55,932 bases of DNA from positions 1 to 55,932 of the forward strand of contig CAIXPS010000183.1 of assembly GCA_903921365.1 (NCBI GenBank), read 5' to 3'. Below the pieces are notes generated by a model. It made no database searches and was not told the DNA's origin. It saw only the letters and a list, made by a program, of their open reading frames with translations. Shown here piece by piece: positions 18,297 to 32,543 of this stretch; position 1 is the first letter of the stretch; every line of letters begins with the position of its first letter. Position numbers and translations under genes: made by a program. This DNA is from an uncultured bacterium. Its GTDB lineage: Bacteria; Chloroflexota; Anaerolineae; J036; Brachytrichaceae.

Positions 18297-18620
18297 ATGA
18301 CAGACGACTTCAAGCTCGGTTTTGTGATAGGAATCATCGCCGGTGAAGGCTCATTCACCGGGGATCACCGCACACCCGCACTGCAGGTGAAGATGCACGC
18401 GCGCGATATCGCCCTTCTTGAAACCCTTCGCGTTCAGCTGGGCGGGAAGATTTACGGTCCCTATACGCATGGCGACCGCTACTACTGTCTGTGGATATTG
18501 CGTGGCGAGGAATTGCGGCAGGCGGCCGAGTTGTTTCTCAACCGCCTGCCCGACGGTCACAAGCGCACCCAGTTCATGGAGTGGGTGCGCAAATACTACA
18601 AAGAGCTAATTGCTGAATAA
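18297..18620 (+). CDS. Small single-motif LAGLIDADG protein
   Basis: A 107-residue protein with one LAGLIDADG-type helix, FVIGIIAGEGSF (about residues 9-20), whose Glu fits the catalytic acidic position. This is followed by the alpha-beta-beta-alpha-beta-beta-alpha pattern of the fold (LQVKMHARDIALLETL, GGKIYG, YCLWILRG, then two helices). Single-motif members act as homodimers; the length is at the lower end for this family. It is not inside an intron or intein, so it is either a free-standing homing endonuclease or a domesticated DNA-binding protein. It lies between the tRNA-Arg unit and the glycan island and overlaps the convergent epimerase gene by 15 bp. Confidence 0.75.
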   Translation: MTDDFKLGFVIGIIAGEGSFTGDHRTPALQVKMHARDIALLETLRVQLGGKIYGPYTHGDRYYCLWILRGEELRQAAELFLNRLPDGHKRTQFMEWVRKYYKELIAE

Positions 18621-22976: not shown

Positions 22977-24020
22977 GTGTTGAATTATACGCACACTGAC
23001 AGCACAAGTCATCCCCACGTTGATATTGTCATCGTCAACTGGAACGGTCTGCGCTATCTGCCAGCATGTCTGAACGCCCTCAGCGCGCAAACCTACTCTG
23101 ATTTCAGCATATGGATCGTGGACAATGGCTCAACCGATGGCTCAGTCGAGTATGTGCGCAACCAGCACCCGTCTGTTCAACTCATCTGCAACGCCACGAA
23201 TCTGGGGTTTGCCGCTGCGAATAACCAGGTCTTTCGCACCGCCCACAGTGAGTATATCGCCCCGCTCAATAACGATACCGTCGTCGATCCTGGTTGGCTC
23301 AGTGCCCTGGTCGAGGCGATGGCGCAGCACCCTCGGGCTGGCATGGCGGCGGCGAAGATGCTGTTCGCTGCCTCGCCGGGGCTGATCAACTCGGCAGGGA
23401 TTGCCGTGGATCGCCTCGGCATCGCCTGGGATCGCCTCGGCGGCAGGCCAGAGAGTGCCAGCGAAACATCTCCGACTCCAGTGTTTGGCGTGAGCGCCGG
23501 CGCGGCACTGTACAGGCGCGCCATGCTGGACGATATAGGCCTCTTCGATGAGGGCTTTTTTGCCTATCTCGAAGATGTCGATCTGGCGTGGCGCGCGCAG
23601 TGGGCTGGCTGGGAGTCGCTATATGTGCCAGGCGCGCGCGTCACTCACCATCATTCCGCCACCAGCCGCGAAGGCTCGCCGTTCAAGAATCGCCTGCTCG
23701 GTCGTAACAAGGTGTGGCTGATTGCCAAGAACTACCCGATGCCTTACCTCTGGTTGTGCCTGCCGGTGATCATCGGGTATGACGTGGCATCGATGTTGTA
23801 CGCCATCGCCGCCCGACGCGATATCAGCCCGTTGGAGGGACGCATCGCCGGGCTGCGCGGGCTGGTCAACGCTCTGCGTAAACGCAAAACGATCCTCTGT
23901 CGAATCACGCCGCGCGCGATGATGGCGTTGCTGGCGCCGGTCGAGTCGCCGTGGCGCGTTCTCCGACGGTACAGGCATCTGACGCCCATCACTCCCGCGC
24001 CACCCGCGGCAAAAAAATAA
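22977..24020 (+). CDS. GT2-family glycosyltransferase (rhamnosyltransferase-like)
   Basis: A 347-residue GT-A enzyme: IVIVNWNG, VDNGSTDGS, NLGFAAANNQ, LNNDTVVDPGW (DXD-like), and FAYLEDVDLAWRAQWAG with the ED-x-D-L catalytic-base region, followed by a C-terminal hydrophobic segment (about 255-285). This is the WbbL/rhamnosyltransferase type of inverting GT2. It begins with GTG (or TTG one codon later), with no clear ribosome site. It is the only plus-strand GT in the cluster. Its 3' end overlaps the convergent FG-GAP gene by 32 bp. Confidence 0.8.
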   Translation: MLNYTHTDSTSHPHVDIVIVNWNGLRYLPACLNALSAQTYSDFSIWIVDNGSTDGSVEYVRNQHPSVQLICNATNLGFAAANNQVFRTAHSEYIAPLNNDTVVDPGWLSALVEAMAQHPRAGMAAAKMLFAASPGLINSAGIAVDRLGIAWDRLGGRPESASETSPTPVFGVSAGAALYRRAMLDDIGLFDEGFFAYLEDVDLAWRAQWAGWESLYVPGARVTHHHSATSREGSPFKNRLLGRNKVWLIAKNYPMPYLWLCLPVIIGYDVASMLYAIAARRDISPLEGRIAGLRGLVNALRKRKTILCRITPRAMMALLAPVESPWRVLRRYRHLTPITPAPPAAKK

Positions 24021-25905
24021 CGTTGCTGTAAAGCAGGAAGGGTCCGAGGTGAAGCGTTTCCTTTGCCCCGTTGCCGGCCCGATCGACGGCGCGCACGTGG
24101 GCATACCACGTCCCGTTCGCGAGCGTAGCCGTGAACGCAGATGCGCCAGCCTTCACATCCGTTTGCGTCCCTGACGGCGTCATCGGATCATGGTCCCACG
24201 CCACTGCATACCCCGCCAGCCCCGCGCCGATATCTGCGCCGCCTCTACCCCAGGTGATGCTGACCATCTGGGGTGAGCTATAGGTGCTGGTCGGCGGCAT
24301 CGTTGTCACGCTGATCGGATTTGTCGGCGGCACGTTGTCGAGCAGCCCCGTATGCGCAGCGTCGTGATGGAACTGCGGCCACGGCGCATACCCCGAGTTT
24401 TGCCCAGCCCACGCAAACAACCTGCCGTAATTCGACATTGTGTTTGTGTTCACTGCGCCGGCGACGACGATCGCGTTGCCGCCGGCTGGATCGAGTGCGC
24501 CGATGGCAGGGCTGAAGTTGAGCGTGGCGGTTGCCCAATACGTCACGCTGGTGCTGCTGGGCTGCCCATCGCATGCGGTCGTTGGCTGGTCGGTGTAATA
24601 CGTCCCATTCGCGTTGAGGATCACTACCTCACTGCCCTGCGTCAGGACGATCTCCGGCGCCGCATCGCCAACGACATCCGCGATCATCGGCGACGCGCGC
24701 AGATAGTGCCGATTGCCATCGACGTCGCACAACAGGCGCCTGATAAACTCATGCCCATCACTACCGCGCCATGCGTATACCGTGCTGCCCTCGGTTGTGT
24801 CTTTGTTTCCGTTTGGCGCAACCACGACCACATCAAGGATGCCGTCGCCGTCCAGATCACCGAAAGCAGGCGAAGCAGTCACATAGCCATTCGTATTCCC
24901 ATCCCAGCTCGGTGTCAGCCGTTCTGACATCTTCGGCTCCATTGGGTTATAACGCATGACCCTCACATAGTACCCCTGGTTGATCACCGCATCACCAGTG
25001 CCCACGGCAATGTCGAGCATGCCATCATTGTCCAGATCAGCAATGGCAGGGCTGGAGTACACCGGCTCATCGAATGGCATGCGGTTCATGACTCCGCCAT
25101 CCGACCGCAATACGCTCAGATAACCTGCGAGACCACCCGTTGGCGTAGTGCGGTTCGAGCCAATCACGATCTCCAGTTTGCCATCCCCGTCGAGGTCGGC
25201 TAATGCCGGCGACGAATACACGGGTTGACCGTTGTACAAACCCTGGTAATTGCACTCGCCATTCGGATACGTAGTGTTGTGCCACAGGGGTTGGCCGGCG
25301 TGGTCGAGCATGTAAATGCAGTAGTCCAGGCTGCCGAAAACCACTTCAGGCAGCCCATCGCCATTCACATCGCCGATTGCCGGCGTCGAATACACACTGG
25401 CAGAGCCGAAGCCGATCGTTGTTGCAAAGTCCCACAACATGGCGCCATTCACACCGTCAAATGCTCTCACACCGCCGTCAATAAGACAACCCTGGGCGAT
25501 ACCACCATAGCCAACAACGACGTCGTTGATTCCGTCGCCATTCAAGTCGGCGACACTCGCCCCCATTCCGGGTGGCTGTGGCAAGCTGGCGCTCCACCGC
25601 AACGTGCCATCCCCTTTGTACACATACACATGGCTGGCGCAGAGAAGCTTATTCTCGGTGCGATCCTGCGTGGCGACCACGATCTCGTTATCCACATGCG
25701 ACGCATCGATGCGCGCGATAGTGGCCTGGACTGGCAACCCAAGACCCGGTCGGCCCCCGGTGACGCCGAGGTCTATGAGGTTTTGTGGAAAGTTGGGTTG
25801 ATACGGCGGGGGGTTAGCGAGAGTCGCGATGGCGGGACTAGAGGTCACCATTCTTGCAACAACAAGTACAACTATCGCCAAAATGATCCTGCCATGGCTC
25901 TTCAT
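23989..25905 (-). CDS. Secreted FG-GAP/VCBS-repeat protein
   Basis: About 638 residues from the ATG at 25905, which has TGGAGA 6 nt upstream; an in-frame ATG 24 nt earlier lacks one. A signal peptide covers residues 1 to about 27. Then come about seven FG-GAP/VCBS blades (about 60-470) with the Ca-binding 'D-L/V-D/N-G/N-D-G-x-x-D/E-I/V-V' signature, as in integrin alpha propellers. A fibronectin-III-like domain follows (about 520-620; TYSSPQMVSITWG..., GTWYAHVRAVDRAG). The protein ends in the short motif SNVIFLPRVARE, related to the end of the beta-helix protein at 30657. Likely role: extracellular adhesion or glycan contact. It closes the long minus-strand gene series that begins at 43702. 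Confidence 0.85.
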   Translation of the reverse strand: MKSHGRIILAIVVLVVARMVTSSPAIATLANPPPYQPNFPQNLIDLGVTGGRPGLGLPVQATIARIDASHVDNEIVVATQDRTENKLLCASHVYVYKGDGTLRWSASLPQPPGMGASVADLNGDGINDVVVGYGGIAQGCLIDGGVRAFDGVNGAMLWDFATTIGFGSASVYSTPAIGDVNGDGLPEVVFGSLDYCIYMLDHAGQPLWHNTTYPNGECNYQGLYNGQPVYSSPALADLDGDGKLEIVIGSNRTTPTGGLAGYLSVLRSDGGVMNRMPFDEPVYSSPAIADLDNDGMLDIAVGTGDAVINQGYYVRVMRYNPMEPKMSERLTPSWDGNTNGYVTASPAFGDLDGDGILDVVVVAPNGNKDTTEGSTVYAWRGSDGHEFIRRLLCDVDGNRHYLRASPMIADVVGDAAPEIVLTQGSEVVILNANGTYYTDQPTTACDGQPSSTSVTYWATATLNFSPAIGALDPAGGNAIVVAGAVNTNTMSNYGRLFAWAGQNSGYAPWPQFHHDAAHTGLLDNVPPTNPISVTTMPPTSTYSSPQMVSITWGRGGADIGAGLAGYAVAWDHDPMTPSGTQTDVKAGASAFTATLANGTWYAHVRAVDRAGNGAKETLHLGPFLLYSNVIFLPRVARE

Positions 25906-25973
25906 TGCATGTCTCCAGATGGGTCTCATTTATTCTGGAACACGTACAGCGACCTGACCGGTGACTGGCTATC

Positions 25974-26597
25974 CTAGTCAGTGCTTTCAGGATGGGTTAT
26001 CCTCAGTTCGAGATCGTTAACACGCTGTCGTAGTTCGGTTATTTCGTTGAGTGTATACCCATACTCTTCCGAAAACGCTTGATTCACAACCGTCTGTTTC
26101 GAGGCAAGTATGCGCACATAGTACAACGGCAGGCCATGTAGTGCCTGGCGCAACTTGGATATCCATCGCCCTATGATAGGAATTGCGGATCTCTGTGGAT
26201 CTATAGCAACAAAAAGTGACTTGCTTTTTGTGACCTCATCAATTTTGGCAATATGCTCGGAGATTCTGATGGCGTCCGTATCTATTTGGTCCAGCAGCGC
26301 TCGTGTGGAAGCGTGAGCGTGTCGTATTTGTAGTTGCTGGGTAAGTTGCAGTTGTGTAATGGCGACTGCGGTTTCCTGAAGCAGCGTTACCAACATATCA
26401 TTCAACTGGAGGAGCCTGCCAATGCTCTGGCGCGACGGACTGCCTGTGTTGCTGATATCCAGTTCGGCGCGAAGTTTATTTTGGAATTGCCTGACAGCCT
26501 CGATACTCTCTCCAAGGTTATCTTTGGGGGGCACACCCTGTGCCAACTCAAACTCGATGTCCTTGATTACATCCTCAGCGCTTAATTTTCTCTTCAT
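25974..26597 (-). CDS. Coiled-coil protein of the glycan cluster
   Basis: A 207-residue protein without signal peptide. Residues about 1-130 are largely helical with heptad patterns (AVRQFQNKLRAEL, QETAVAITQLQLTQQLQ). Then comes an amphipathic, proline-containing segment (IPIIGRWISKLRQALHGLPLYYV, about 145-167) and a C-terminal coiled coil (NEITELRQRVNDLEL). The 'P-I-I/L-G-x-x-I/L-x-x-L-R-x-x-L-H' segment is one I associate with proteins in polysaccharide loci. No enzyme motif is present. It overlaps the GT fusion gene by 4 nt (ATGA), so it is probably made in proportion to it and could be a scaffold or membrane-docking partner. Confidence 0.6.
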   Translation of the reverse strand: MKRKLSAEDVIKDIEFELAQGVPPKDNLGESIEAVRQFQNKLRAELDISNTGSPSRQSIGRLLQLNDMLVTLLQETAVAITQLQLTQQLQIRHAHASTRALLDQIDTDAIRISEHIAKIDEVTKSKSLFVAIDPQRSAIPIIGRWISKLRQALHGLPLYYVRILASKQTVVNQAFSEEYGYTLNEITELRQRVNDLELRITHPESTD

Positions 26598-28906
26598 TGA
26601 TGATCCGCCCCTGAATTCCGTGTGATTATATTGCGATAAATCCTTGTGAAATTATTCGCCATATGTGCGGCCGTGAAATGCGTCAGAAGTCGCTGGCGAC
26701 CAGCCATCCCCATATCACGAAGCAATACTGGCGAGCACAACACTGTGGCAATTGCCTCTGCCAGAGCTTTTGGGCTTTGCGGGTCAACCAGGAGTCCGGT
26801 GACGCCATGCTCGACAACCTCTGGCACACCACCCGTATTGCAGCCGATTACAGGTTTTGAGTAGTTCATTGCTTCGATATAAATAAGGCCAAATGATTCA
26901 TATAACGACGGAGCCACAAACAGATCACAAGACTGGTAAAGCTGCTCTTGGGGTTCGCCGTCAGGAACCTCACCGACAAAGTCGACCATAGACTTGTATT
27001 CAGGAAAAGTGCGCTCAAAGTAAGATCGGTAATCCATTCCTGTGCGCTCCAAAAATCCATCATTATGGCTGTTGTCTGCCCCAGCAATGACAAATCTTGT
27101 GTTGGGCGCGTGTTTCACTACTGAAGGAATTGCATGAAATAAATCAATGATGCCTTTGCGCTTTTCCAGTCGGCCAAGAAATAGCACCTTCAGGTTTTTC
27201 TCGCTGCGCTGCAGATCATATGGTCTGGTCTTCTCGTCGGGGACGGGTTCAATGCCATACGTAGCTATGCTGTACTGATCTTCTCGTGGATGGACTCCAT
27301 AAATACCTTGTAATGTGCGCAGTGTCGCGTGAGTGTTTGGAAGCAGATGATTTGCCCGTTCAATAAACACGCGCTCCATTTCTCCCTGCAACCTTTTATC
27401 GTCGCTGTCATCTCCGTTTAGCGGCGCAATTTGCCGCATGGCTGTCACAAGCCGAATAACCACAGGGAGAATCCCGCTCAAACTTGTGACCAAACCTTCA
27501 AACTGGTAATTAGATGAGTCAATGATCTGGATACCATCATTAAGAATGAGATCCTTAACTTTCTCGTAGACGTTATGGCTGTGGTTCAGGAGGTAGTACA
27601 TTCCAGGCAAATGCTTATACTGCTCGTAATACTCAAGCCGTGTCGGTATTTCGTGCACATATGCGCCATCTCGAAAGGTCAAACGCTCACGATCCCCTTT
27701 CGTGATGACATGCACTGTTTGTCCACTTTCGAATAGTGCTTTTGCTAACATATGTGTCTGGCGACCAACCCCTCCCTTGTCCGATGGTGGGAAATCCCGG
27801 CTCAGTAGACAAATCCGCAATGGCGGCTCGCTCAGGCGCACATTAGCTTGTCGGCCATTGATTGGGTCAACTGATGGCATAAATGCAGAGTATCCGTTCT
27901 GGTATTGATGAAAAGAAGCTTTCATGGATGTGTCATCACCCGCTTGTCCGCCGTTCTGCGGTATGAGTTTACGGGGAAATGAAAAACCTTTTACCATACC
28001 GTGCAGGCCGCTGGTAACCTCATTAATGCGCATTTGCCATGCCTGAAGGCTACTGATCTTGTTATCGTGAAGAAATTGATTGGACAAGAGTAGATGACCA
28101 TGGATCAGGTTCATGCAACGACGAATGATCGTGCTTCGAGACTCCCCAGATGCGGTTCCATTCTTTACGGCCGAATAGACCGATGCGCGCGTCTGTAGCC
28201 ACCACTTCAAGTTATATGTGAACACTTGGCGATTGTGACTTGACGCAGGCACATGATATACCGGCGCCTGTTTGACGGGGTGCAGTATTTTTCCGGCGAT
28301 GGTGAAACGCATGGCAACATCTGTTTCATCGTATACCCATTCATAAAACTCATCAAAACCTCCTATATCAATGAGATCCGCGCGGCGATAGGCCATGTTC
28401 GTGCCCATCATACGGGTAACCCATTGGGTTGCTATGCCTGGAGGAACAAGATGCTCCAACCACGATGATCGCACATCAACCTGCTCAGCCAGCGACGAAA
28501 ATAATCCAAGACTGTGTTGTAAACGCGGATGGTTAGGATGAATCAAATACACGATACCACCAGTCGCGCCAATCCACGGGTCTTCGAATATACCAGCGAG
28601 TTGTTCAAGCCATCGATGCGATGGCACAGCATCGTCATCAATGTAAGCAACAATGTCGCCGGAGGATGCCAGTAACCCAATATTTCGTGAAACTCCGAGA
28701 TTCGCTGATGGACATCGCAACACCTTCACACGATCGCCATAGTTATCGAGCAACTCCATGGTATTGTCTTTGGTGGGACCAACGACTATAACCACTTCAA
28801 AGTCTGGATACGATTGTTTTTCCAACGCGCACAAAAGTGTCTGCAGGGGCTGGGCGCGATTGATTGTATTAATGATTATGGAAAAACGAGGGCTATCGGT
28901 ATTCAT
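26594..28906 (-). CDS. GT2-GT4 bifunctional glycosyltransferase
   Basis: A 770-residue fusion. Residues about 5-260 are a GT-A domain of family GT2 (SIIINTINRA, SANLGVSRNIGLL, DXD in AYIDDDAVPSHRW, then DETDVAMRF). A linker follows to about 360, then a full GT-B GT4 domain (about 362-765): LSRDFPPSDKGGVGRQTHML, LFLGRLEKRKGI, and the EX7E motif ESFGLIYIEAMNYSKPVIG. Two sequential sugar additions, one by an inverting and one by a retaining mechanism, could be made by one polypeptide; this is inference. It overlaps neighbours on both sides (14 nt upstream, 4 nt downstream). Confidence 0.85.
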   Translation of the reverse strand: MNTDSPRFSIIINTINRAQPLQTLLCALEKQSYPDFEVVIVVGPTKDNTMELLDNYGDRVKVLRCPSANLGVSRNIGLLASSGDIVAYIDDDAVPSHRWLEQLAGIFEDPWIGATGGIVYLIHPNHPRLQHSLGLFSSLAEQVDVRSSWLEHLVPPGIATQWVTRMMGTNMAYRRADLIDIGGFDEFYEWVYDETDVAMRFTIAGKILHPVKQAPVYHVPASSHNRQVFTYNLKWWLQTRASVYSAVKNGTASGESRSTIIRRCMNLIHGHLLLSNQFLHDNKISSLQAWQMRINEVTSGLHGMVKGFSFPRKLIPQNGGQAGDDTSMKASFHQYQNGYSAFMPSVDPINGRQANVRLSEPPLRICLLSRDFPPSDKGGVGRQTHMLAKALFESGQTVHVITKGDRERLTFRDGAYVHEIPTRLEYYEQYKHLPGMYYLLNHSHNVYEKVKDLILNDGIQIIDSSNYQFEGLVTSLSGILPVVIRLVTAMRQIAPLNGDDSDDKRLQGEMERVFIERANHLLPNTHATLRTLQGIYGVHPREDQYSIATYGIEPVPDEKTRPYDLQRSEKNLKVLFLGRLEKRKGIIDLFHAIPSVVKHAPNTRFVIAGADNSHNDGFLERTGMDYRSYFERTFPEYKSMVDFVGEVPDGEPQEQLYQSCDLFVAPSLYESFGLIYIEAMNYSKPVIGCNTGGVPEVVEHGVTGLLVDPQSPKALAEAIATVLCSPVLLRDMGMAGRQRLLTHFTAAHMANNFTRIYRNIITRNSGADHQ

Positions 28907-30605
28907 AGTCGATCATTAGCTCGATTGACCTGACGCGCGCATCCATCATTTGCAACTGCTGGTTCAGCAACTCAATCTGCTGACCCAACTTGGTGAGCCA
29001 CCCACTAATGATCTGCTGATTTTCCTCAACTAACTCAAGTCTATGATTCATTTCCCCCTGTATCCGGTTGTGTTTTAACCCCGCCTGATTTTGTGGCGCA
29101 CGTAACACATTAATATGCTCTGCGTGTTGGGAAATCGCTGACGCGTTCTGCTCGTATGTCAACTGATGCAAGCGCACGATGATATCCATCTGTGCGCCAT
29201 TCAGCCTGATCATATCTGACAGGACTTGATAATCACGCCCACTAAGGAGCCTTTCCGCGCGTTGCACAAACTGTGGCATTTTGCGCACGACGGACGATGT
29301 GGCTCTCTTACCCCTGCTAGAGAATTCGTTGATGTTGTTATGAAGGTCCCGCTCTTCAACGCGTAAGTCCTCCAGTTGTTTATACAATGCCGAAAGATCA
29401 GCCCCTGGAGCAATAGTGAACTTGGGTTGCACTTCCAAAACGCGGTTATCCGCGGGCGTCTCCTGGAATCCTTTGTCGCTAATAGGATTTTGTTGTTCGC
29501 CAGTAATCTTGCCAAACGCTATCGGCTGCTCTGTCTGAATTTGCGACGGGGAAGATGCTGGATTAGAGGGGATGCGATAGTCCAAAGCGCCGACTATGGA
29601 TAAATGTGCAAGCGCGCCTTCGTTTGGCACAGTCACTGATGCCTTCAGAAGTTGGCGAATGGCTGCAATAGCTTGCTTCCTGATTCGGGTAAATCCGACT
29701 TCTAACAATCTGTCATGAGCTGATGAAGTCACACGGGCGAAGTGTTCTTCCGCATCCGAGATTGTCTGAGATAGGTGGCGCAGAGTGTCTTGCGCCGCTA
29801 AGGCACGACCAAGTAAATGCTCCGGGTAAACAGCAGATTCAATTGAGCCACGCTCATTCTCAAAGAACAGGCCAAGTTCATCATCACGAAAATGCTTGAT
29901 GACAAAACGATAGCGTGAGTGATTCTGGTTAGCCCAGAACACATACGGATCTTTTCGCCATTCTTCACTTGTTAACAAATGGGTCGCTTTTGCGTCTGGG
30001 ATAAAGGTGATTTTGCTGCCGTGATATGCGGCGCGATAACAATAGTCAACTTCCTCATAATAAGCGGGGTAGAACCCTTCATCGAATCGCCCCGTTTCTT
30101 TCCAGCACTTGCGCCGTATTGCAAAAACAGCGCCTGTAACATACTCCACATCTTGAGGCTGATTGCTTAACACCTCGGTGATATGAACACCGTAAGCACC
30201 CGGGCGACTTAAATAGGCGCCTGCATGATTAATACTGCCGTCCTTATTTAGTATGGTGCAACCCGCGATGCCGATTTCCTCGCGGGACTCCATCGTCTGG
30301 ACAATCGCATCCAACCAGCCTGGAAGCACCAGACAATCCTGGTTGATAAGAATAAATAGATCGCCAGTGGCAGCATCAATACCCGCATTGACGCCTCCTG
30401 CAAATCCAAGGTTAACAGCTTCATGTATTATTTTTACGTGAGGATACAGGCTCTGGATGAGACTCGCAGAATTGTCGTGAGAAGCGTTGTCAACACAAAT
30501 GACCTCATGCAGATTCGCGCCACTATTCGCGAAAATGTTTTTCAGACAATCAGCGATTGTGCTTGCGCCGTTCCAGACAGGAATAATGACACTTGCAGAC
30601 ATCAT
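28893..30605 (-). CDS. GT2 glycosyltransferase with long coiled-coil tail
   Basis: A 570-residue protein. Residues 1 to about 240 are a GT2 domain (SVIIPVWNGA, VDNASHDNSA, NLGFAGGVNAG, INQDCLVLPGW, YYEEVDYCYRA). Residues about 260-570 have no enzyme motif: mixed linker, a region EDLRVEERDLHNNINEF, and a C-terminal coiled coil (RLELVEENQQIISGWLTKL, QIELLNQQLQMMDARVRSIEL). Similar tails occur on other proteins of this locus. The first two codons are both ATG. It lies 51 nt after the beta-helix gene. Confidence 0.8.
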   Translation of the reverse strand: MMSASVIIPVWNGASTIADCLKNIFANSGANLHEVICVDNASHDNSASLIQSLYPHVKIIHEAVNLGFAGGVNAGIDAATGDLFILINQDCLVLPGWLDAIVQTMESREEIGIAGCTILNKDGSINHAGAYLSRPGAYGVHITEVLSNQPQDVEYVTGAVFAIRRKCWKETGRFDEGFYPAYYEEVDYCYRAAYHGSKITFIPDAKATHLLTSEEWRKDPYVFWANQNHSRYRFVIKHFRDDELGLFFENERGSIESAVYPEHLLGRALAAQDTLRHLSQTISDAEEHFARVTSSAHDRLLEVGFTRIRKQAIAAIRQLLKASVTVPNEGALAHLSIVGALDYRIPSNPASSPSQIQTEQPIAFGKITGEQQNPISDKGFQETPADNRVLEVQPKFTIAPGADLSALYKQLEDLRVEERDLHNNINEFSSRGKRATSSVVRKMPQFVQRAERLLSGRDYQVLSDMIRLNGAQMDIIVRLHQLTYEQNASAISQHAEHINVLRAPQNQAGLKHNRIQGEMNHRLELVEENQQIISGWLTKLGQQIELLNQQLQMMDARVRSIELMIDYEYR

Positions 30606-30656
30606 AAAATTACTCGCGTTGTTATGCGTCGAAGGGACGCCAGGAAAGACAAACGC

Positions 30657-32543
30657 TTACCGGGTGACGCCAGGCACATATGTTGAATACGCGAAATGAT
30701 GGTACTGATAGGCTCCAATATCCGGTATTCCAATGCGGGGCAGATTATCTGCATCTACTACTGTTGTGCTTCCTGCCGCCTGGCTGCGTGCTGGCGAGGA
30801 TTGTACAATATGGTAATCGAATCCTGGAAAACCAGGGGATACGAAACCAGCCGAGTTTGTGCCGGTCACGTTCAACGCGTTATTGTCGATCAGCGTTCCA
30901 TATCCAGCCATCTGGTTTGTATTTCCTGCCCACAAAGTATAGTCGAGAGAAACAGTGTTACCCGTTTGCACATTCAACGCCGCGTCCGTGCAACATATGT
31001 GATCTGCGATGATACTATATTTAAATATAGCGTTAGTCGCATGTGCTACGCCGTAATTCATAGCCAATATAGCCTGACCAATAGTACCCGTGGCGCCCGT
31101 GTTCGAGGTAACGAGTTGATTTCGGACAAGTGTGGCATGGGTCACAGTGATGTTAATTCCCTGCAACCACAGCCCTCCGCCCCCCCCTCCCTGGGTAAAA
31201 CCCGTGCCAATTCTGACCGTATTGTCAGCTATCAAGATATTGGTTAGTCGATGTGTCAGATTCAGAGAGCCCACGCGGACAATAGCGGCTCCACCACCAC
31301 CTGCCGGGCCGGAGTTAACGGCCCCATTTCCACCAATCGCGGAATTGCCGGTTAATCTACCCCGATCAACGACAAGACTGGAATCCCATGCAAAAATGCC
31401 GCCGCCCTCACCAATCCAACCATCATGCCCATTTCCCCCCGTGGCACTATTGTTTGACACAGTAATATCATATAGTGTAACGGATGTTGATGCGGTTGTG
31501 CCTTGATTCTCAAGATACACACCGCCACCAAAACCAGCACCAGGGTATAGGCGGGCATCGCCACCAATCGCCTGATTACCGGTTACGACTAACCTTGTTG
31601 CCGTAATGACAGAACCCTCTTTGAACGCAACGCCGCCTCCCTGTGCGTCAGCGCGCTCGCCGGTGGCTATTTCCTTCCCATCGCAGGCGCAGGAAAGGGT
31701 TGTAGCCTGGTTGTTCTGCAAGACCATGTTCGTAATGACCCCAGTAGTATCATATGTAAACATGCCGGCGCCATGGGAATAGCCGCTACGTTGGGCGCCA
31801 GTCCCGCCAATCGTTTTGTTATAGCTTGACGTGATATTGGTCATAATCAGATGGCTTACACTCTTAAGAGCAATTCCCCCACCAACTGCAGCTCCACCAA
31901 CTACCGTATCTGTGGACCCCACCGTGCTTGTGCCAATAGCACTGTTATTGGTGATAACCAGGTTATCAAGGTATAAATCCGTTGTATTCTCAGCAAACAG
32001 GCCGCCACCCAACGCGAAATATCTCTCCGGCGAGGGTCTGCCACTAATGCCACGCGCCAAGCCACCAGTGATAATAAAGTTCTTAAGCGTCAGGCTTGCT
32101 GTTGGTCCAGTGCTTGTGATCCACACGCCGCGATACTGGTTCTGGCCGGAGATGATGGTTGAATTGGCGATTGAATCCGGTTGGATCCAATTCGTTGTTG
32201 TATACCCGCCGATAATTGACAAGCGTTTATTTATTATGCACACCACGGCAGTGGAGGTGAGAAACAATAAACACTCATCTCTTATACCAGTAGTGTACAC
32301 ATAGTTACCCGCAGCGACGCGAATTGTGCCTTCACCTGAATACGGTATCAGATTGACAGCATACTGAATGGTCTTGCATGGAGTAGTGGACGCTATACCG
32401 CAACTTAAAACATCATTGCCGGTTGGCGACACATAATAAGTGCCAGATTGACTAACCCTCAGCGTTTGAGCAATGACATCTGGCAGACTTGTGCCACCAA
32501 GTGTAAGCATAAGTGTGGTTAGAATCCTGATAAATACAAGCAT
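30657..32543 (-). CDS. Secreted right-handed beta-helix protein (choice-of-anchor Q type)
   Basis: About 628 residues from the ATG at 32543 (signal peptide MLVFIRILTTLMLTL..., cleavage near VIAQ). An upstream in-frame start would overlap the previous gene by 143 nt and bury the signal peptide, so it is rejected. The N-terminus YYVSPTGND...CKTIQYAVN is typical of pectate-lyase-like beta-helices. The body has many 'N-N-x-A-x-G-G/T-x-x-x-x-G-G-G-x-A/F' turns (GGGLFAEN, GGGIALKS, GGGVAFKE). The C-terminal SSPARSQA plus RIGIPDIGAYQY marks the choice-of-anchor Q family. It ends in YSTYVPGVTR, like the FG-GAP protein's end. Probable extracellular glycan-binding or surface protein; no catalytic residues can be assigned. 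Confidence 0.85.
   Translation of the reverse strand: MLVFIRILTTLMLTLGGTSLPDVIAQTLRVSQSGTYYVSPTGNDVLSCGIASTTPCKTIQYAVNLIPYSGEGTIRVAAGNYVYTTGIRDECLLFLTSTAVVCIINKRLSIIGGYTTTNWIQPDSIANSTIISGQNQYRGVWITSTGPTASLTLKNFIITGGLARGISGRPSPERYFALGGGLFAENTTDLYLDNLVITNNSAIGTSTVGSTDTVVGGAAVGGGIALKSVSHLIMTNITSSYNKTIGGTGAQRSGYSHGAGMFTYDTTGVITNMVLQNNQATTLSCACDGKEIATGERADAQGGGVAFKEGSVITATRLVVTGNQAIGGDARLYPGAGFGGGVYLENQGTTASTSVTLYDITVSNNSATGGNGHDGWIGEGGGIFAWDSSLVVDRGRLTGNSAIGGNGAVNSGPAGGGGAAIVRVGSLNLTHRLTNILIADNTVRIGTGFTQGGGGGGLWLQGINITVTHATLVRNQLVTSNTGATGTIGQAILAMNYGVAHATNAIFKYSIIADHICCTDAALNVQTGNTVSLDYTLWAGNTNQMAGYGTLIDNNALNVTGTNSAGFVSPGFPGFDYHIVQSSPARSQAAGSTTVVDADNLPRIGIPDIGAYQYHHFAYSTYVPGVTR

Follow-up and report, generated by a model that had tools for sequence, protein, structure and literature searches.

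A short C-terminal tag, reading roughly Tyr-Leu-Pro-Leu-Val-x-Arg, was found on unrelated exported proteins of Chloroflexota; it is most likely a new C-terminal surface-sorting tag, and its link to an enzyme of the Peptidase C25 family is a proposal. The tag was noticed at the ends of two proteins of the 55,932-nucleotide contig CAIXPS010000183.1 (assembly GCA_903921365.1), which was analyzed in full and is hereafter called the window (contig C183 in our numbering, in which G stands for genomes, f for families, and L for loci). Both proteins are encoded on the minus strand, namely an exported FG-GAP repeat protein of 646 residues (open reading frame 23989..25929), whose C-terminus reads ...YSNVIFLPRVARE and forms the tag FLPRVARE (23992..24015), and a beta-helix-type protein of 628 residues counted from its ATG (30657..32543), which ends in ...AYSTYVPGVTR with the tag YVPGVTR (30660..30680). 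Translation of the two open reading frames gave the C-terminal ends that an earlier note on this DNA had singled out, while its statement that both proteins have signal peptides held for the FG-GAP protein by the crude signal-peptide rule used here and only in part for the beta-helix protein, which was scored as transmembrane although its N-terminus is signal-peptide-like. Both window tags are untypical, with Arg or Gly at position 4 where most tags have Leu, Met, Ile, or Val, and that of the FG-GAP protein has one extra residue C-terminal to the Arg. Taken alone, they are degenerate and would not be significant by themselves; therefore, the motif was examined genome-wide and in relatives.

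The tag on exported proteins of Chloroflexota

In the window's own genome (G000, 6.88 Mb, family f1), the strict DNA pattern [FY]-[hydrophobic]-P-[hydrophobic]-[VIM]-x-[RS]-stop gave 13 matches vs. 0 for the reversed pattern used as control. In one of the 13, the last codon is TGG, which is not a stop, and 11 are open frames of at least 40 residues ending in the tag. An unbiased sample of this genome was made of 60 stretches chosen blind to content plus the window, 712,477 bases in all, and its genes were classed as exported (SEC), transmembrane (TM), or cytosolic (CYT) with a home-made gene caller and the crude signal-peptide rule, by which some exported proteins are wrongly classed as TM or CYT. 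The strict tag stood at the C-terminus of 7/45 SEC, 2/158 TM, and 1/376 CYT genes (SEC vs. CYT, p 7.5e-7), and on none of the 11 lipoprotein-like SEC genes of the sample. Shuffling of the last 14 residues produced a mean of 0.036 tags, compared with the 9 observed in SEC and TM genes together. With a looser pattern and a caller trained on fewer loci, the counts were 8/45 SEC, 3/161 TM, and 1/377 CYT, a set in which one match is false, namely a lipoprotein-like protein of L074, which we regard as a substrate-binding protein. These results indicated that a short C-terminal sequence is common to unrelated, predicted exported proteins and rare on cytosolic ones of the same organism, which is the enrichment that the earlier note had put up for checking; its observation is confirmed, and is larger than was stated there. 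On the other side, small unbiased samples of two other genomes yielded next to no tags, namely 0/155 genes and 0/10 SEC genes in 200 kb of G163, and 0/4 SEC genes, 1/19 TM genes, and 1/79 genes overall in 96 kb of G366, as is expected from a density of about 18 strict matches per 5.8 Mb.

To define the tag, 44 tagged proteins from the own genome, G163, and G302 were collected, three pattern matches (L074, L078, and one in L145) having been dropped. The consensus of the 44 tags is [VAT]-[YF]-[LV]-P-[LMI]-[VI]-x-R-COOH, about 8 residues, with Arg or Lys at the last consensus position in 43/44 and 0, 1, or 2 residues following that position in 37, 4, and 3 tags, respectively. The 44 proteins fall into 26 homology groups without mutual detectable homology, the largest holding 12, and their domains include FG-GAP, beta-helix, Ice_binding, Big_3_5, and trypsin as well as NHL, Laminin_G, Kelch, DUF11, and CarboxypepD_reg. 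In G218, the 35 tags are 35 distinct DNA strings in which Leu is written with six codons, Pro with four, and Arg with five, so the similarity of the tags is kept at the protein level and does not stem from copied DNA. The tags contain neither a transmembrane or hydrophobic segment nor a leaving domain, and the tag itself was matched by none of the NCBIfam and Pfam models in the proteins scanned. A description of the tag was not found in open-licence PubMed Central, preprints and subscription journals being outside the scope of that search. Tagged genes at times lie as adjacent same-strand pairs (L145 6570-14720, L139 7298-17069, L131 8993-11103, and L152 10027-17909).

Among 400 Chloroflexota genomes, the strict pattern reached up to 51 matches vs. 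2 for the control in f25 and up to 25 vs. 0 in f62, besides the 13 vs. 0 of the own family f1, while many other families stayed at control level. Further, a joint pattern for the end of the choice-of-anchor Q domain followed by the tag retrieved 21 stretches from 84,980 species genomes, all titled as Chloroflexota lineages (Chloroflexaceae, Anaerolineae, Anaerolineales, Anaerolineaceae, Brevefilum, Thermoflexales, and Chloroflexota or Chloroflexi); this number is an undercount because ATC for Ile and an exact tag were required. The family-wide counts and the 21 stretches bear out the earlier impression that secreted proteins of Chloroflexota often end in such a sequence.

What speaks most strongly for a sorting or anchoring role is that the tag replaces other anchors behind one and the same domain, choice-of-anchor Q (NF041518). 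Tails after this domain were read in 30 loci, of which 22 have a visible stop. In the tag-poor families f2 and f30, the tag is missing from all 13 tails that show a stop; three SLH repeats (88.5 bits) follow the domain in one case, another tail is hydrophobic with a sub-cutoff MYXO-CTERM match, and five stop within five residues. In f1, f5, f25, f35, f49, and f64, by contrast, 9/9 tails are the tag or a close variant, some variants having His in place of the aromatic residue. Of 30 domain matches in the own genome, 22 were read; two of these run off a contig and two lie in one protein, which leaves 19 proteins, and by eye a hydrophobic-hydrophobic-Pro core stands at the end of 16/19 and the strict [FY]hP core at that of 12/19. 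The core was likewise present in 6/6 further f25 tails judged by eye. A sorting or anchoring role, which the earlier note had called possible, is now better than possible as far as this exchange of anchors in the sequences goes, and the tag is probably a sorting or retention signal.

The choice-of-anchor Q domain with three SLH repeats lies in L180 (G109, of the f2 family), a genome outside the 80-genome set described below. Anchoring through SLH repeats in tag-rich genomes was rejected, as PF00395 matched in 0/80 Chloroflexota genomes spanning tag-rich and tag-poor families.

The two window proteins were characterized further. The FG-GAP protein matches Pfam FG-GAP_3 and FG-GAP. The beta-helix protein matches the choice-of-anchor Q model weakly, with 13.9 bits against a cut-off of 25, over residues 578-614 of 628, and its P624 and R628 stand in columns without variation when 10 sequences, tagged proteins from named Chloroflexota genomes among them, are aligned. 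An AlphaFold model of it, computed with 9 relatives as input, has regular strands with a mean predicted local distance difference test (pLDDT) score of 60, and says nothing about the tag because its last 90 residues score below 50. The two tagged genes belong to a large cluster (21956-43702) with glycosyltransferases and PMT-like membrane proteins, which is perhaps a set of surface polysaccharide or protein glycosylation genes. Elsewhere in the window, an open frame of 107 residues starting MTDDFKLGFVIGIIAGEGSF (18297-18620) resembles a piece of a LAGLIDADG-type endonuclease.

Peptidase C25 and the search for a reader

An all-against-all BLAST of 29 hit-centred loci showed no gene family that is repeatedly found next to the tagged genes. 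Candidate partners were looked up in 80 genomes chosen by tag count to span tag-rich and tag-poor families. A genome was counted as tag-rich if it had 3 or more matches and these exceeded twice the control, and as tag-poor if it had at most 2; 5/80 were neither. Exosortase matched in 5/80 genomes, 4 of them over the family cut-off and none of them G000 or a member of f25 or f62, and it does not track the tag and was rejected as an obligate partner. Classical sortase (PF04203) occurs in 66/80 genomes, the own genome included, and was also rejected in that role, since it has no match in the tag-rich G255 and G333 (nor in G165 and G338) and is present in 27/38 tag-poor genomes.

Peptidase C25, however, tracks the tag, being present in 34/37 tag-rich vs. 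3/38 tag-poor genomes. Since the 80 genomes had been picked by tag count, the comparison was repeated on the 400 genomes, with tag-rich defined as at least 4 matches and more than twice the control and C25 scored at E ≤ 1e-20; C25 was then found in 40/47 tag-rich vs. 23/353 other genomes. By family, the level at which alone the link was corrected for phylogeny, the counts were 8/12 tag-rich vs. 7/77 others (p 3.3e-5). Within f62, genus g117 (G139 and G371) has neither the tag nor C25, and its sister genera have both. No co-occurring membrane protein, which the earlier note had suggested looking for, turned up as such; of the factors that co-occur with the tag, the best is this exported, PorU-like peptidase.

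By their sequences, the C25 proteins are PorU homologues and not equivalogs. The 884-residue C25 protein of G163 matched PorU in the PDB at 9.9e-9, ahead of gingipain at 1.2e-5, and NF033707 (PorU) was the best NCBIfam model in 5/5 C25 proteins scanned (134 to 169 bits), the best score to this model being 232.8 bits in G067, with 167.7 bits in G163. A catalytic-type His and Cys, corresponding to the GH and C of the PorU alignment, are invariant in 20/20 aligned C25 domains. The SprA translocon model PF14349 matched in 0/45 genomes, in a search that registered no positive control.

The C25 genes have recurrent neighbours at some loci. A tag-ending DUF11 protein adjoins C25 in L265, L266, L267, L270, and L271, and in L261, L269, L270, and L271 the neighbour is a DUF11 protein that has an LPXTG-like sequence together with a hydrophobic segment and a basic tail; of these four, only L261 and L269 gave a TIGR01167 match above the cut-off. 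Sortase adjoins C25 in L252 (own genome), L256, L257, and L266, and a DUF11-sortase fusion in L267. Such DUF11 and sortase neighbours are absent at other C25 loci, such as L254, L258, and L268. The DUF11 proteins of these clusters are like GhlA in domain content. GhlA of the Chloroflexota species Litorilinea aerophila is described as having 6,596 residues and 49 DUF11 domains and as forming grappling-hook filaments; its peptides are reported up to residue 6,566, and a C-terminal motif is not discussed in the passages on these points (PMC13319060).

Several arrangements of these domains were observed besides. The fusion in L267 (3344-4564) corresponds to two overlapping frames in its relative L266 (3193-4388), a DUF11 frame with LPETG and then a sortase. 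L242 (JAFGKB010000185.1, 1-5742, from an Anaerolineae metagenome-assembled genome) holds a 1913-residue frame composed of C25, Ig-like, beta-helix, and choice-of-anchor Q domains and the tag. Sortase domains lie within very long open frames of 2490 to 3838 residues in G069, G093, and G213, and in G005 and G052 they are close to a choice-of-anchor Q domain that lies in a frame of equal length, which suggests secreted proteins with a built-in sortase.

Proposed role of the tag and rival explanations

A tagged protein would be exported by means of its N-terminal signal peptide, and its exposed tag would then be read outside the membrane, so that the protein would stay in the multilayered envelope or become attached to it. 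The most likely candidate for this reading is the PorU-like C25 cysteine peptidase, which would work as a transpeptidase and cut at or near the tag; the new C-terminus might be joined to a surface acceptor, at a guess a glycan or an adjoining sortase-anchored DUF11 protein. The action of C25 on the tag is proposed by analogy with Porphyromonas, in which PorU is described as removing the C-terminal domain and adding a glycolipid (PMC8545088). That the tag is read by the C25 enzyme is put forward tentatively, at somewhat short of an even chance.

Several results weigh against this proposal. A p-value computed over the 400 genomes overstates the C25 link because related genomes share ancestry. 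The association also has exceptions in both directions: 23 genomes have C25 without many tags, and strong C25 is lacking from the tag-rich G034, G255, G147, G361, G020, and G167 (G182 has a weak match), no PorU-model match at E ≤ 1 being seen in the tag-rich genomes that lack it; the firmest of these exceptions are the pair G034/G255 and G147, a genome in 4 contigs that is 99% complete. The equivalog cut-off of NF033707, 420 bits, was passed by 0/45 genomes. Finally, 15/20 C25 frames themselves end in the tag or in a non-aromatic variant (TLPLVQR, DVPLLQR), the untagged ones being that of L259 and four f4/f8 frames (L262, partly masked, L263, and two in L264); since they carry the tag themselves, the C25 proteins may be cargo.

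This last point leads to the closest competitor, in which the tag is a non-covalent retention peptide. It would not be removed from its protein but would dock on a protein of the envelope or of a fibre, where it would probably add a beta strand, and the C25 peptidases would simply be common tagged cargo, much like the gingipains in type IX secretion. Such uncleaved docking accounts for the tag nearly as well as the pairing with C25, and we regard it as quite possible though short of probable: it agrees with the lack of a hydrophobic segment or leaving domain, with the Arg or Lys 0 to 2 residues from the end in 43/44 tags, with the tags on most C25 frames, with the tagged genomes G147, G034, and G255 that lack C25, and with L242, where C25, beta-helix, choice_anch_Q, and tag are combined in one protein. 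However, docking by itself leaves unexplained both the concentration of C25 in tag-bearing families and its likeness to the PorU sortase with sortase and LPXTG-type neighbours, no receptor was found, and the tagged genes have no conserved neighbour in the 29 hit-centred loci. It is improbable that the tag merely serves its own protein, as a C-terminal cap, as protection from proteases, or in the folding of extracellular beta-rich proteins, with no sorting machinery; most tagged proteins are indeed beta-rich, but it is hard to fit to this role that one sequence recurs in no fewer than 26 unrelated protein groups and is absent from homologues in tag-poor Chloroflexota and from the lipoproteins (0/11).

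Processing of the tag by a classical sortase as an LPXTG-like site would agree with the L-P-x-[VI] that the tag holds, with the wide occurrence of sortases, own genome included, and with their place next to C25 in the four loci named above; yet they are missing from the tag-rich G255 and G333 and frequent in tag-poor genomes, and the tag has no hydrophobic segment or basic tail, while these loci also encode proteins with true LPXTG-like tails, which makes this reading very improbable. A chance similarity of hydrophobic C-termini would have sufficed for the two degenerate window tags, but is refuted by the genome-wide 13 vs. 0, by 9 tags vs. a shuffled mean of 0.04, and by the recurrence of matches across genomes.

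The pairing of the tag with C25 may be extended to a two-step pathway outside type IX secretion, in which a sortase would anchor an LPXTG-type DUF11 base and C25 would then join YLP-tagged proteins, large GhlA-like DUF11 fibres among them, to this base or to an envelope glycan. This joint reading is unlikely as it stands; if true, C25 sortases would here form a system that needs neither the type IX translocon nor its large C-terminal domain. The finding bears on the placement and retention of proteins in the multilayered and unusual cell envelope that Chloroflexota have. A recognizable tag turns genome sequence into lists of candidate surface proteins, and offers a direct assay of whether it is cut, and by what.

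Comparison with known sorting systems

Like the MYXO-CTERM/myxosortase and GlyGly-CTERM/rhombosortase systems, the tag is a lineage-wide C-terminal sorting signal candidate on dozens of proteins, but those signals have a membrane segment and the Chloroflexota tag has none. With PEP-CTERM/exosortase, it shares a short C-terminal homology on unrelated exported proteins and the phylogenetic-profile approach (PMC1569441); it differs in having no PEP motif or membrane segment, and the own genome has no exosortase. The LPXTG/sortase system is similar in that it uses a C-terminal surface-sorting signal with an L-P pair, and sortases and LPXTG-like proteins occur in the same clusters; however, the tag has no Thr-Gly, hydrophobic segment, or basic tail, sortases do not follow the tag, and the NCBIfam LPXTG model did not match on 8 tagged proteins. 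As to choice-of-anchor Q, the tag lies directly behind this domain, where anchors sit, which fits a reading of the tag as an anchor, although the domain is the cargo and not the tag.

Compared with type IX secretion, the tag is about 8 residues long and not a beta-sandwich domain, no type IX sorting-domain model matched on the 8 tagged proteins (NCBIfam, E ≤ 5), and the Chloroflexota C25 proteins score far under the PorU equivalog cut-off. Chloroflexota are also regarded as being without a standard outer membrane (PMC13319060). The likenesses are the pairing of a signal peptide with a C-terminal signal, shared by many unrelated surface proteins (for the tag, a predicted location), a C25-family enzyme whose best curated match is PorU and which has the catalytic-type His and Cys, and PorU-like proteins that bear the signal themselves. 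The tag suggests that PorU-type sortases may work beyond the type IX secretion of Bacteroidota.

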